DNA from: Methylotuvimicrobium buryatense 5G
GTDB lineage: Bacteria > Pseudomonadota > Gammaproteobacteria > Methylococcales > Methylomonadaceae
NCBI RefSeq assembly: GCF_000341735.1
Contig: NZ_KB455575.1
Location: forward strand, 4,931,458 to 4,984,547
Reading direction: 5' to 3'
DNA: 53,090 nt
The position numbers were made by a program, and so were the translations under genes. Under the pieces are notes generated by a model, which was not told the origin of the DNA, ran no database searches, and worked only from the letters and a program-made list of their open reading frames with translations. Positions 35,155 through 38,872 of this stretch are shown here, piece by piece. The stretch's first letter is position 1. Each line of letters begins with the position of its first letter.

Positions 35155-35619
35155 ATGTTTGGATTTACTTCGGATCATTCCGCTTCGGGTACGGCTAGCA
35201 CAATCATCAATAAACCGGTGGATGATGTGTTTAATTTTATCGGGGTCGATTTTTTTAAAAATTATCATCGGTGGTCGCCTGAGGTCATCGAATGCGAATT
35301 ACTGAGCGATCCGCCGTTACGTTTGAATAGCCTTGCCAGGCAGGTACGAATCGATCAGGGTCAAAGAAGCGAGTCGACTTTTAAGGTAACTTGCTTTGAT
35401 CCGCTTAGTAAATTGACTTTTGAAGGTGTTTCGAATCCCTATCGTTGTTTTTATGATTTTAAGCCCGGGCGGACGCCGGAGCAGACTGAAGTCACATTTA
35501 CTTTCGAATTATTGAGGCTCGAACTCTTCATGCTACCGTTTGAAAAGCTGATTCGTATTGCTGTGAGAGAGGGTGCGATCCGAACGGTTCGAAATCTCAA
35601 AACGTTAATAGAGTCTTAG
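35155..35619 (+). CDS. SRPBCC-fold protein, first copy of the LOV-linked pair
   Basis: 154 residues. VDDVFNFIGVDFFKNYHRWSP, then LARQVRIDQGQRSESTFKV, and a C-terminal helix LFMLPFEKLIRIAVREGAIR fit the START/SRPBCC (polyketide cyclase/dehydrase-like) fold, a helix-grip that holds a hydrophobic ligand. No signal peptide is seen, so it is probably cytoplasmic. It is a clear paralogue of the protein at 36716-37204, with the same motif order and near-identical VRI(D/E)QGQ and MxPFEKLIR segments. A LOV photoreceptor gene follows each copy. Here 430 bases of repeats, including a MITE, separate it from its LOV partner. The ligand is unknown. The fold call is from pattern, not a search. Confidence 0.7.
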   Translation: MFGFTSDHSASGTASTIINKPVDDVFNFIGVDFFKNYHRWSPEVIECELLSDPPLRLNSLARQVRIDQGQRSESTFKVTCFDPLSKLTFEGVSNPYRCFYDFKPGRTPEQTEVTFTFELLRLELFMLPFEKLIRIAVREGAIRTVRNLKTLIES

Positions 35620-36049
35620 GGGCGAGCCCCGTAGGGTATGCTATGCGTACCATGGCAACCCCACCAATGCTAACACAAGCACTTATGGTTTGATCTGGGT
35701 AGGGATTCGGTGTTTAACGGCATGGAGGTTCGCGAGCGTGCTGTAGAACTTATGTATAACGATGAGCGCTGAGCGTCACTACCATTAAGTTAAGCCGTCA
35801 CAGAATAGTAATACTGGCTTCAGGCTCGAATGGTTTTCAAAAGCCTACCATCCATGGCACTGGATTCCGCCAGTCCATGGCGGAATGACGGGTTTCCCTT
35901 AACTTAATGGCAGTGCCGCAGAGCGTGGGAACGATGAAGCCTGAGTTATTTCGTGCTCATTCCTTAGAGAACGCTAATTACGAGTTCAGAATTGATGACT
36001 AATGCTAAGCAATCCGGATATTTTTTGAGTCAGATGGCGGGTATTGAAC
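35620..36049. repeat. Repeats inserted between SRPBCC1 and LOV1
   Basis: 35628-35748 is a GTAGGGTATGC..GTACCATGGCAACCCCACC element that matches 13095-13215 in reverse complement. A CACTGCC MITE at 35777-35915, set in a GCGTGGGAACG repeat, follows. The rest carries no recognisable gene. Confidence 0.7.
35777..35915. mobile_element. CACTGCC MITE, interior type 1, copy at 35.8 kb
   Basis: 139 bp with ends CACTACCATTAAGTTAAG and CTTAACTTAATGGCAGTG. The flanks GCGCTGAGCGT (35766-35776) and CCGCAGAGCGT (35916-35926) agree at 9 of 11 positions, an aged target duplication. Interior orientation matches the 1401 copy. Confidence 0.83.
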
Positions 36050-36544
36050 ATGAAGTTTCAAATAGAAAAAGATCCGGGAGTCATTCCTCACATTCTTACT
36101 CAAATTTTGGACGGGTGTGTTAATGGTATTACCTTGTCCGATCCCGATTTGGAAGATAACCCGATCGTCTTCGCGAACGAAGTTTTCGAAAAAATCACCG
36201 GTTACAGTCGTGATGACATTATTGGAAAAAACTGCCGGTTCTTGCAAGGAAAAGATCATGATCAACCGGAGATCGAAATCTTGCGTGAGGCGATCAAGAA
36301 TCGACGAGCAGTTGAGGTCACGCTAAAAAACTATAAAAAAAACGGCGATCTTTTTTACAATCGGCTTTCTGTAACCCCCTTATTCGATAACGAAGGTCGG
36401 TTGATTTATTTTCTAGGCGTTCAATACGACATTACCGAACAGATACATGCGCAACACGAGATAGAAAGATTGAATAATTCTTTCGACTTAAGGCGTTTCG
36501 ACTACCTTAGTCAGCAGTCTAAGCGAGGAACTGTTAAACGTTGA
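36050..36544 (+). CDS. Short LOV-domain blue-light receptor, copy 1
   Basis: 164 residues from ATG 36050. It is a single PAS/LOV domain with the diagnostic GKNCRFLQG motif; C62 is the residue expected to form the flavin-cysteinyl adduct in blue light. Other LOV hallmarks are NPIVFANEVFEKITGYS, NYKKNGDLFYNRLSVTPL (flavin-contacting Asn residues) and YFLGVQYDIT, with the Gln that signals the flavin state. A helical tail (AQHEIERLNNSFDLRRFDYL) follows but no kinase, HTH, GGDEF or STAS output domain, so it is a short LOV protein that must act through a partner. The neighbouring SRPBCC genes are the obvious candidates. FMN binding is inferred from motif. Confidence 0.93.
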   Translation: MKFQIEKDPGVIPHILTQILDGCVNGITLSDPDLEDNPIVFANEVFEKITGYSRDDIIGKNCRFLQGKDHDQPEIEILREAIKNRRAVEVTLKNYKKNGDLFYNRLSVTPLFDNEGRLIYFLGVQYDITEQIHAQHEIERLNNSFDLRRFDYLSQQSKRGTVKR

Positions 36545-36603
36545 ATACTCAAACGTGATCGATTCTTTCAAAAAACAAACAACTAGGCGATATGGGGAAG
36601 CTA

Positions 36604-36729
36604 ATGAGTAATGAGGTTGACATGACGTGTGCCGACATTTATCCGAAAATATCTATGGATATTTCGGTGCCGGAGAAAAAAAACTTCAACTTACCACGAT
36701 CGACAAGGAGGCCGCATGTTTGCGTTTGA
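36604..36729 (+). CDS. Possible 41-residue leader ORF overlapping SRPBCC2
   Basis: ATG 36604 is preceded by GGGGAAG and opens a 41-codon frame (MSNEVDMTCADIYPKISMD..) that ends at TGA 36727-36729, 14 bases inside the SRPBCC2 gene in another frame. It could couple translation of SRPBCC2. No homology is recognised, and it may be fortuitous. Confidence 0.25.
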   Translation: MSNEVDMTCADIYPKISMDISVPEKKNFNLPRSTRRPHVCV

Positions 36730-37204
36730 TTTATCAAAACCGTTGATCGGGAAAGCTGGTATAGGTCTTGAAAAAACCGTTGCTGACGTGTTCGATTATG
36801 TCGGCTTTCATTTTTTTGATAATTATCCAAAATGGGCCTTGGAAGTTATCGAATTTGAGGTGCTGCAGGAACAACCTATCGGAGTCGGTTCGAGAGCCAA
36901 GCAAGTTAGGATAGAGCAAGGGCAAAAAGTAGAGTCGACCTTCGAGATCACCGAATTTGTGCCGTTACAAACATTAGCGCTGGAATCGGTAAGCCAAGAG
37001 TTTCGTGAAGTTTATACCTTTGAGGAGGACAACGGCATCGATTCGACTCGATTAGAAATTAGCTTTGAGTTGCTGCATGTCGATTTCTTCATGAGGCCGT
37101 TTGAAAAGTTGATTCGTGTTGCCATCGAGGAAGGCTTGCAAAATTCGCTGGAAAATATCCAAACACTGTTGGGTGGTCATTACGGTGAGCCGGAAGGGTC
37201 TTGA
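36716..37204 (+). CDS. SRPBCC-fold protein, second copy of the LOV-linked pair
   Basis: 162 residues. ATG 36716 is chosen because AAGGAGG stands 3 bases upstream (close, but the best available) and the N-terminus then aligns with the first copy (MFAFDLSK against MFGFTSDH). Shared landmarks: VADVFDYVGFHFFDNYPKW, AKQVRIEQGQKVESTFE, LEISFELLHVDFFMRPFEKLIRVAIEEG. The helix-grip fold suggests binding of a hydrophobic ligand in the cytoplasm. It lies between the two LOV genes, 74 bases before LOV2. The alternation SRPBCC-LOV-SRPBCC-LOV shows that the pair was duplicated as a unit. Confidence 0.72.
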   Translation: MFAFDLSKPLIGKAGIGLEKTVADVFDYVGFHFFDNYPKWALEVIEFEVLQEQPIGVGSRAKQVRIEQGQKVESTFEITEFVPLQTLALESVSQEFREVYTFEEDNGIDSTRLEISFELLHVDFFMRPFEKLIRVAIEEGLQNSLENIQTLLGGHYGEPEGS

Positions 37205-37278
37205 TTTAAAGGTTATTGAACGCTACCGGCAGCCAACACTGAATGTTCCAATCGTAAAATTTATCTAGGAGTATAACA

Positions 37279-37725
37279 ATGGCTTTTATCGCTGAAAAAG
37301 ATCCGGGATTGATTCCGCAAATTCTATCGCTGATTCTGGATGAATGCATTAACGGCATTACGCTAGCCGACCCTGACCTCGAGGACATGCCGATTGTTTA
37401 TGCCAATAAAGCGTTTGTAGCGGTTACCGGTTATTCGCAGGAAGAAGTGATCGGACGCAATTGTCGATTCTTGCAGGGCGATGACCGAAACCAAGAAGAA
37501 ATTAAGAGGATTAAGGAGGCTATAAATGCACAAAAACCGGTTGAAGTGGTTTTGCGCAATTATAAAAAAAACGGAGAGTTATTCTATAACCGGTTTAAGA
37601 TCATTCCATTATGCGATCGGAGCGGCAAGCTGATTTATTTTCTCGGCGTGCAATACGATGTTACACGGCAAATCGTTGACGAGGAAACTATCAATAATTT
37701 GAGAAAACAGCTAGAAAGTCTGTAA
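37279..37725 (+). CDS. Short LOV-domain blue-light receptor, copy 2
   Basis: 148 residues. AGGAG lies 8 bases before the ATG. Nearly colinear with copy 1: xEKDPGxIPxIL start, then NGITLADPDLEDMPIVYANK, and GRNCRFLQG with C62 at the same residue number. NYKKNGELFYNRFKIIPL and YFLGVQYDVT follow, and the C-terminal helix (DEETINNLRKQLESL) is shorter than in copy 1. No output domain. Divergence in the tail hints that the two receptors contact different partners or differ in dimerisation. Blue-light sensing is known for the LOV family; the pathway here is unknown. Confidence 0.93.
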   Translation: MAFIAEKDPGLIPQILSLILDECINGITLADPDLEDMPIVYANKAFVAVTGYSQEEVIGRNCRFLQGDDRNQEEIKRIKEAINAQKPVEVVLRNYKKNGELFYNRFKIIPLCDRSGKLIYFLGVQYDVTRQIVDEETINNLRKQLESL

Positions 37726-37728
37726 TAT

Positions 37729-37938
37729 TATACCTATCGCACTTCAAATTTCGGCATTAGCGTATGGAGGCGTCGGGGTGTTAGGTCGATTTTGCTCCTG
37801 CAAAATCGACATTCATGCCATCCATGGCGCTCGCAAAGGCTTTGGCAGCATGGATACTGTCATAGAGCCTACATGGACGTATTCACGGCGTCCTTTCACG
37901 GGCACCCCTACGCCGAAATTTGACTAGCAAAGGGTATA
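37729..37938. repeat. TATACC-ended inverted-repeat element, copy 2
   Basis: 210 bp that begins 3 bases after the LOV2 stop. Ends TATACCTATCGCACTTC.. and ..TAGCAAAGGGTATA are imperfect 27-base inverted repeats sharing TCAAATTTCGGC. Related to 13564-13725. In RNA it would form a long hairpin and could act as a 3' boundary for the LOV genes. Confidence 0.7.
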
Positions 37939-38035
37939 TGATTCATTAAGATTTATTTGGGCAATCGTCTAGAGGCTTATCTAATAAGACTTCCGATATA
38001 GGGTGTTGATATGTTTATTTTAGTCAAGGTGCGTC

Positions 38036-38872
38036 ATGAACGTTACGGATAGCTCTTTACCGGTTGCCGAGCAAGGTTTGCCGTTGAATGAAATCTTTTT
38101 GTCATTGGCGATAGCAGCATTTCTGTTGTTAATAGTGATGGAAGGATTGAAACCTTACCAGCGGTTCGATCGAAAAGTCGCGAAAAATTCGGTGGTTACT
38201 AATACTACGGCTTTTTTATTTAATAATGTTATTTTAACCACCCTAAGAGCGTCCTCGCTTTTTTTTGTGGCGCAACAGTTTTCGAATTATGGCGTGTTGA
38301 GCGGTCTGTCCAACGGGCCGATTAAATGGGTGCTATCGTTTTTATTGTTCGATCTTGCGATTTATGCTTGGCATTATGCAAGTCACAAAAACGAATTTTT
38401 ATGGCGTTTCCATAAAATTCATCATAGTGATAAAACCTTTAACGTCACGACCGGGTTTCGTTTTCATGTATTCGATTTGTTTATTGAAATCGTCATGAAA
38501 TGCCTGTTCGTCATTGTTTTCGGCGTCGATGCTTACGTGATACTCGCGATCGAATTGATCGAGCTGTCTTTTATTTTCTTTCATCATTCGAATCTGTCCT
38601 TCGAGAAAGAGGATTTATTGTCGAAAGTTATTATTACGCCGGCCTTGCATAGAACTCATCATTCGGCACTACGTAGTGAGCATGACAGTAATTACGGTAT
38701 TGTGTTATCGATATGGGATCAATTGTTTGGTACTCGCAAGGAATTGGTTCCGAAAAAGATCGGTCTCGATTTAATCGAAGCAGATAATTTTATACAGCTG
38801 TTTTTCTTGGCATTCATTACCGAAAGACACGTAGCCAAACTATTAGGTTTGATTCCGAAAGGAAGAAAATAA
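38036..38872 (+). CDS. Membrane fatty-acid hydroxylase/sterol-desaturase family protein
   Basis: 278 residues. AAGGTG stands 6 bases before the ATG. The di-iron histidine clusters of the family are present: H113-x3-H117 (HYASH), H126-x2-HH130 (HKIHH), HH at 183-184, and H205-x2-HH209 (HRTHH). Several hydrophobic helices at about 20-36, 95-112 and 150-183 place it in the inner membrane. Such enzymes use oxygen to hydroxylate or desaturate lipids such as fatty acids, sterols or carotenoids. It follows the LOV/SRPBCC genes by 310 bases with an inverted-repeat element between, so co-transcription is doubtful. Its substrate is unknown, and hopanoid or other lipid tailoring is a guess. Confidence 0.87.
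   Translation: MNVTDSSLPVAEQGLPLNEIFLSLAIAAFLLLIVMEGLKPYQRFDRKVAKNSVVTNTTAFLFNNVILTTLRASSLFFVAQQFSNYGVLSGLSNGPIKWVLSFLLFDLAIYAWHYASHKNEFLWRFHKIHHSDKTFNVTTGFRFHVFDLFIEIVMKCLFVIVFGVDAYVILAIELIELSFIFFHHSNLSFEKEDLLSKVIITPALHRTHHSALRSEHDSNYGIVLSIWDQLFGTRKELVPKKIGLDLIEADNFIQLFFLAFITERHVAKLLGLIPKGRK

Follow-up and report, generated by a model that had tools for sequence, protein, structure and literature searches.

Why should a bacterium encode two short LOV photoreceptors that have no output domain, each next to a small protein of the SRPBCC (START/Bet v1-like) fold? The question is raised by a 53,090-nucleotide stretch of Methylotuvimicrobium buryatense 5G (contig NZ_KB455575.1, positions 4,931,458 to 4,984,547; the window, hereafter), in which the genes SRPBCC1, LOV1, SRPBCC2 and LOV2 follow one another and are succeeded by a gene for a membrane hydroxylase, here called FAH. 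An initial annotation of the sequence had given this order, which proves correct, with all five genes on the plus strand, and had proposed that light-controlled lipid handling takes place through a LOV-SRPBCC complex. We conclude that a LOV and its SRPBCC very probably make up one functional unit. That the unit is a two-protein blue-light module, present twice here, in which LOV controls a START-fold protein serving a lipid or quinone enzyme, seems to us an evenly balanced proposition.

The case for a unit rests on recurrence. In a sample of 301 genomes of the order (Methylococcales), SRPBCC is found in 149 (E<=1e-5) and LOV in 147 (E<=1e-34). For the pairing statistics LOV was taken at E<1e-50, which gives 143 genomes, and 142 of these also have SRPBCC (Fisher p 3e-76, uncorrected for kinship). 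Read from the side of SRPBCC, 142 of the 149 genomes have such a LOV; those that do not are, in our genome codes, G058, G067, G175, G203, G261, G274 and G299, and G292 is the single LOV genome that lacks SRPBCC. Gene position tells the same story. Among the matches listed, 150 for each protein, LOV lies downstream on the same strand at 129 of the 150 SRPBCC places and upstream at none, with a gap of 20-520 nt (median 60 nt); because the places are those among the matches listed, some of the 21 unpaired SRPBCCs are artefactual. Does the adjacency simply reflect a conserved stretch of chromosome? Where long flanks were available in the order (L163-L166, L173-L180 and L182, L being our locus code), most of what lies outside the unit and its third partners varies from locus to locus, so that pairing in the order is not plain synteny; L166 and L180, which share a genus code, have alike flanks. 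The divergences of the two proteins are correlated as well. In the pair set of the divergence test (n=129, without short rows or rows lacking a usable Met, such as the pair of G564), the Mantel r, which includes shared ancestry, is 0.80, and 0 of 2000 permutations reach as high a value; 76 of these 129 pairs come from the best-80 relatives considered next. A locus of a different kind is L176 (G235:C1:4800000-4816000), where a third LOV has just an SRPBCC fragment upstream; by its sequence it is perhaps a decaying extra unit.

The unit also occurs outside the order. SRPBCC is present in 9 of 369 genomes of a class sample, two of which (G008 and G000, the window's own genome) belong to the order, and in 3 of 398 genomes of a phylum sample. 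LOV adjoins SRPBCC in G621, G641, G454 and G564, and does so at both places in G835, a presumed alphaproteobacterial methanotroph; of the two SRPBCC places in G1056 (genus g458), a relative of G835, one has SRPBCC-LOV. Species genomes, when scanned, yielded 295 relatives, of which we examined the best 80. The ranking query was the G621 sequence, which is close to Nitrosomonas in the tree, so that the set favours ammonia oxidisers, and 73 of the 80 are titled Nitrosomonas, Nitrosospira or kin. In this set of 80, LOV follows SRPBCC at 77 loci. The three misses are L143, which ends within SRPBCC, L157, which ends within the LOV start, and L161, where LOV is split over two frames. With such wide recurrence, the genome search for adjacency that the initial annotation had suggested excludes an arrangement confined to one strain. 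At L181, also gammaproteobacterial, a relative of SRPBCC stands without an adjacent LOV.

Are the two LOV proteins plausible light sensors? Both have the annotated adduct cysteine C62, which lies in a GxNCRFLQG motif, and G59, N61, C62, R63 and F64 are invariant in a 30-row LOV alignment, as are N94, N104 and Q125, which we take to be the Asn/Asn/Gln of the LOV fold that contact flavin mononucleotide (FMN). The annotated lack of an output domain is borne out, as only PAS-type Pfam families match above cut-off in LOV1 and LOV2 (164 and 148 residues). By motif, contact residues and the want of a covalent output domain, sequence assigns both to the short LOV proteins. They resemble PpSB1-LOV, PpSB2-LOV and Pf5-LOV of Pseudomonas, which likewise consist of a LOV core without output domain, have a GxNCRFLQ-type motif, and carry N- and C-terminal helices. 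Searched against PDB sequences, LOV1 matches 7r5n and 7a6p best, the structure matches of a linked SRPBCC-LOV model (see below) include 7a6p, 3sw1 and 7r5n, and a same-genus relative of LOV2 is 37-40% identical to the Pseudomonas short-LOV structures. There are differences, however. The stretch ILDxxxNGxTLxDPD, near-invariant in the present LOV family, is not in 7r5n or 7a6p, and the SRPBCC neighbour is constant here, while no fixed partner is known to us for the Pseudomonas short LOVs; to our knowledge the partners of short LOV proteins are largely unknown. The likeness to the LOV-STAS protein YtvA of Bacillus lies in the LOV part, which aligns to NF052652, but LOV1 and LOV2 have no STAS match, and membership in the full-length YtvA family is rejected by scores of 164.8 and 159 bits, under the cut-off of 250. 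As to kinetics, residues 70 and 75 of LOV1 are His and Ile, as they are in 7a6p (PpSB2-LOV); the second place is Arg in several relatives. If these residues correspond, as we presume, to the sites altered in the PpSB1-LOV mutant 6gg9 (R61H/R66I), they hint at a fast photocycle for LOV1.

The SRPBCC proteins were correctly described as paralogues of that fold, since both score above the PF10604 gathering threshold. The AlphaFold2 model of SRPBCC2 (pLDDT 90.1) has the helix-grip order of elements, and its top Foldseek match in the PDB is 2d4r (E 2.6e-9, TM score 0.71 by query and 0.78 by target). This likeness extends to the START, RatA and PYL proteins in general, which share the helix-grip fold, with 2d4r, PYL2 and TcmN all within the best 50 Foldseek matches, but sequence identity of these structures to SRPBCC2 is 9-17%. 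SRPBCC2 is thus predicted to have a START/helix-grip fold. An SRPBCC profile run against PDB sequences returned two chance-level matches and nothing else. By sequence, neither SRPBCC falls in the RatA/COQ10 family, as there is no NF007999 match at E<=1 and the profile-profile probability against RatA-like neighbours is weak (17%).

Which enzyme might the unit serve? Here we used presence counts, as overlapping stop-to-stop frames can give wrong order labels, and dropped 18 loci with short flanks (8 of family f1, 3 of family f4 and 7 of the Nitrosomonadaceae). The hydroxylase, annotated as following the pairs, belongs to the pair-2 unit: pair-2-type loci of f1 read SRPBCC-LOV-FAH, with LOV in all 18 and FAH in 17 of them. 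The histidines H113/H117, H126/H129/H130, H183/H184 and H205/H208/H209 of FAH are invariant in 14 rows, and its sequence places FAH in the PF04116 membrane di-iron hydroxylase family. It aligns to NF052566, the family of the ornithine-lipid hydroxylase OlsE; at 85.9 bits against an equivalog cut-off of 475, identity with OlsE is rejected. A FAH profile found no match among PDB sequences. Relatives of pair 1 keep other company. A Pyr_redox_2 flavoenzyme lies directly upstream of SRPBCC in 69 of the best-80 loci and in 71 of the 100 loci examined, with a median gap of 25 nt. In the PDB it is matched best by NADH dehydrogenases, and an f4 member aligns with 5na1 (NADH dehydrogenase-like) over residues 11-379 of 384, so that by sequence we call it NDH-2-like, with putative quinone activity. 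A smaller sample of the order has it in 16 of 89 genomes, at 17 places, 11 of which adjoin SRPBCC by their coordinates, ten on the same strand. The window, unlike many relatives, has no NDH-2-like gene; a 45% homologue is encoded far off in the same genome. Of the 74 Nitrosomonadaceae-type loci whose flanks are long enough, 73 have LOV and 64 the NDH-2-like gene. The 20 f4 loci have a RatA-like gene in 17, LOV in 16, the NDH-2-like gene in 14 and FAH in 5; L034 and L035 hold all five genes, and L163 also has the NDH-2-like enzyme. In the pair-1-like f1 loci, a RatA-like gene is present in 6 of 9 and the NDH-2-like gene in 3 of 9. The proposal of lipid handling is incomplete, as many relatives have the NDH-2-like enzyme and a RatA/COQ10-like protein in place of FAH. 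COQ10 binds ubiquinone. These neighbours shift the likely ligand from a lipid to a quinone or lipid, and what was taken for lipid handling may be quinone handling.

How did two such pairs come to lie side by side? SRPBCC1 and SRPBCC2 are 44% identical and are the sole SRPBCC matches in the genome (5.07 Mb, two contigs; E<=0.001); LOV1 and LOV2 are 59% identical. One would think, as the initial annotation did from the alternation of the genes, that the pair was duplicated as a unit. Trees of 69 pairs, among them every fifth Nitrosomonadaceae pair (16), and approximately unbiased (AU) tests put the two pairs in different old lineages instead. In the SRPBCC tree, pair 1 groups with the f4 and Nitrosomonadaceae units and pair 2 with the FAH-linked f1 units, with SH-like approximate likelihood ratio (SH-aLRT) values of 87 and 82; these parting branches are not starred, and the depth of pair 1 differs between the SRPBCC and LOV trees. 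Each lineage has its own single-pair relatives. When the genus's pairs 1 and 2 are held together as one clade, the AU test gives p 0.0003 for SRPBCC and a borderline 0.033 for LOV, and local tandem duplication is rejected. The sequence comparisons thus support two old lineages standing side by side rather than local duplicates. In another genome of the genus, G164 (L196, G164:C1:4655500-4662500), the genes read SRPBCC1-LOV1-RatA-like-SRPBCC2-LOV2-FAH; searched by tblastn, the window has no match to the RatA-like protein at E<=1.

How might the unit work? A short LOV would take up blue light through FMN and form the Cys62 adduct. Since it lacks an output domain, it would signal by binding or releasing the product of the adjacent gene, the SRPBCC/START-fold protein. 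The latter, with its hydrophobic pocket, would carry or present a lipid or quinone-like ligand to a membrane or redox enzyme encoded alongside, which for pair 2 would be the di-iron hydroxylase and in pair-1-type relatives the NDH-2-like flavoenzyme together with the RatA/COQ10-like protein. The SRPBCC had been put forward as the natural LOV partner, and the gene link has turned out to be real and wide; light sensing and control, contact between the two proteins, the ligand in the pocket and the effect on the enzyme are steps that we infer. When SRPBCC2 and LOV2 of a same-genus genome are read through the spacer as one chain, AlphaFold2 gives a pLDDT of 81.2 and a predicted TM score (pTM) of 0.72, with the linker (residues 156-197) disordered. 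In our judgement this pTM is above expectation for two independently floating domains, and the model thus hints at physical contact.

Several observations weigh against this picture of a light-controlled pair. The pTM of the linked chain stands without a non-partner control, and no natural SRPBCC-LOV fusion was found in the four long SRPBCC frames examined (L163-L166), which are stop-to-stop artefacts. SRPBCC is found without an adjacent LOV at the other place in G1056 (L183) and in gammaproteobacteria at L072-L075. In G058, G067 and G175 (L020, L036 and L038), the NDH-2-like enzyme, SRPBCC and the RatA-like protein occur without LOV, so that SRPBCC can do without it. The RatA-like gene is as constant in the f4 loci as LOV is, and the partner enzymes vary between lineages. 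Finally, 62 of the best-80 loci retain one more upstream gene (cluster c3), and adjacency in the Nitrosomonadaceae may in part be plain synteny.

Need the two proteins touch at all? They might take part in a shared membrane or quinone process, with LOV signalling through some other partner, such as a transcription factor or a kinase. The clusters in which SRPBCC lacks LOV fit such a scheme; moreover, the genome is rich in other PAS proteins, many of which are among its 45 matches to LOV1, and 21 of 100 loci have response-regulator-like genes (cluster c8, an identification by eye) no more than five genes from the unit. These last are at varying places, however, with no regulator at a constant place beside the unit, and LOV is almost never without SRPBCC while the third genes change by lineage. 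We regard this alternative as doubtful, though it deserves to be kept in mind. The LOV-less clusters bear also on the idea that the loci encode a unit of a quinone or lipid pathway, whose working members are SRPBCC, the NDH-2-like enzyme, the RatA/COQ10-like protein and FAH, with LOV as an optional accessory that tunes expression or one step. The match of the flavoenzyme to NADH dehydrogenases over nearly its whole length agrees with this idea, as do the f4 loci, where the RatA-like gene is found slightly more often than LOV and the NDH-2-like gene and FAH are also met, all five genes being together at L034 and L035. Against it, LOV outnumbers the enzyme in the Nitrosomonadaceae-type loci (73 of 74 versus 64 for the NDH-2-like gene), and in pair-2-type f1 loci it is present without exception, FAH being missed once. 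We consider an optional LOV unlikely.

Might the LOVs serve in vivo not as photosensors but as flavin-binding subunits of an SRPBCC complex, with a redox or scaffold role? Redox responses are known among LOV/PAS proteins, and in relatives the neighbour is a flavoenzyme. In that case loss of the adduct cysteine would be expected in some members, and C62, like the flavin-contact residues, is invariant in all 30 rows, which argues for a photosensory role; a redox or scaffold function appears very improbable.

Which bacteria would have use for a light-controlled pair? The window's own genome carries PF02461 (the AmoA/PmoA family), and in the phylum sample PF02461 is above cut-off in 3 of 398 genomes, which are the three SRPBCC carriers, G000, G621 and G835; G966 matches below cut-off. 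The association is not strict. Of the nine SRPBCC carriers in the class sample, six lack PF02461 (G454, G562, G564, G599, G641 and G659), as does G010, an SRPBCC carrier of the order whose genome is 85% complete. In the family of G835, SRPBCC is found in 2 of 60 genomes and PF02461 in 3 of 60, and only G835 has both: G1080 and G1093 have PF02461 without SRPBCC, and G1056, which has photosynthetic reaction-centre genes (two PF00124), has SRPBCC without PF02461. A strict restriction to copper-monooxygenase bacteria is rejected, and the gene contents leave a suggestive, not exclusive, link of SRPBCC-LOV to the copper monooxygenase. Intracytoplasmic membranes might be the common factor, given the reaction-centre genes of G1056, but G454, G562, G564, G641 and G659 have neither these nor PF02461. 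A more specific, and in our view improbable, proposal is a light-gated START shuttle, in which blue light acting through LOV would set the hand-over of quinone or lipid by SRPBCC to the NDH-2-like reductase or the hydroxylase, in bacteria with a quinol-fed, light-sensitive copper monooxygenase; photoinhibition would then be partly a regulated response and not damage alone. According to a passage in PMC9797979, ammonia oxidation in cultures is inhibited by light.

Both LOV and START proteins are familiar types, and the fixed short-LOV/START unit is new as far as can be seen: nowhere did we find a LOV-SRPBCC pair described in the full-text literature, the coverage of which leaves out most subscription journals and all bioRxiv preprints. 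The unit supplies a short LOV with a partner that is fixed across methane- and ammonia-oxidising bacteria. If there is indeed a blue-light module in these organisms, it would offer a genetic handle on the effect of light on methane and nitrogen cycling, and the LOV-START pair could serve as a compact, modular switch by which light acts on hydrophobic ligands.

Genes and spacers of the SRPBCC-LOV locus, in window coordinates (scores are Pfam bits with the family's cut-off)
Feature	Coordinates	Strand	Length (aa)	Remarks
SRPBCC1, START/Bet v1-like, pair 1	35155..35619	+	154	PF10604, 44.1 bits (cut-off 27.4)
Spacer SRPBCC1/LOV1	35620..36049	.		mostly dispersed repeats
LOV1, short LOV, pair 1	36050..36544	+	164	adduct Cys62; PF13426, 85.3 bits (cut-off 27)
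Spacer LOV1/SRPBCC2	36545..36715	.		site of RatA/COQ10-like gene in same-genus genome G164
SRPBCC2, START/Bet v1-like, pair 2	36716..37204	+	162	PF10604, 28.9 bits (cut-off 27.4; barely passes)
LOV2, short LOV, pair 2	37279..37725	+	148	adduct Cys62; PF13426, 72.2 bits (cut-off 27)
FAH, membrane fatty-acid-hydroxylase/sterol-desaturase family	38036..38872	+	278	PF04116, 95.8 bits (cut-off 31)

For LOV1 the ATG at 36050 was taken as the start; the list of open reading frames has a TTG at 36044. Promoter and terminator scans gave a signal no higher than in shuffles. Repeats are found at 35625-35938, before LOV1, and at 37726-37923, before FAH. Copies of about 80-93% identity lie near 1.4, 11.3, 12.7, 13.1, 13.6, 27.8 and 29.0 kb of the window; those of the spacer before LOV1 include longer ones, 85-93% identical. 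Elsewhere in the genome (G000:C1:1688578-1688955), a frame of 1421 residues includes a LOV-like PAS stretch that is 37% identical to LOV1. Apart from LOV1 and LOV2 themselves, this frame is the single genome match that ranks near them, and judging by its sequence it is possibly another light or redox sensor.

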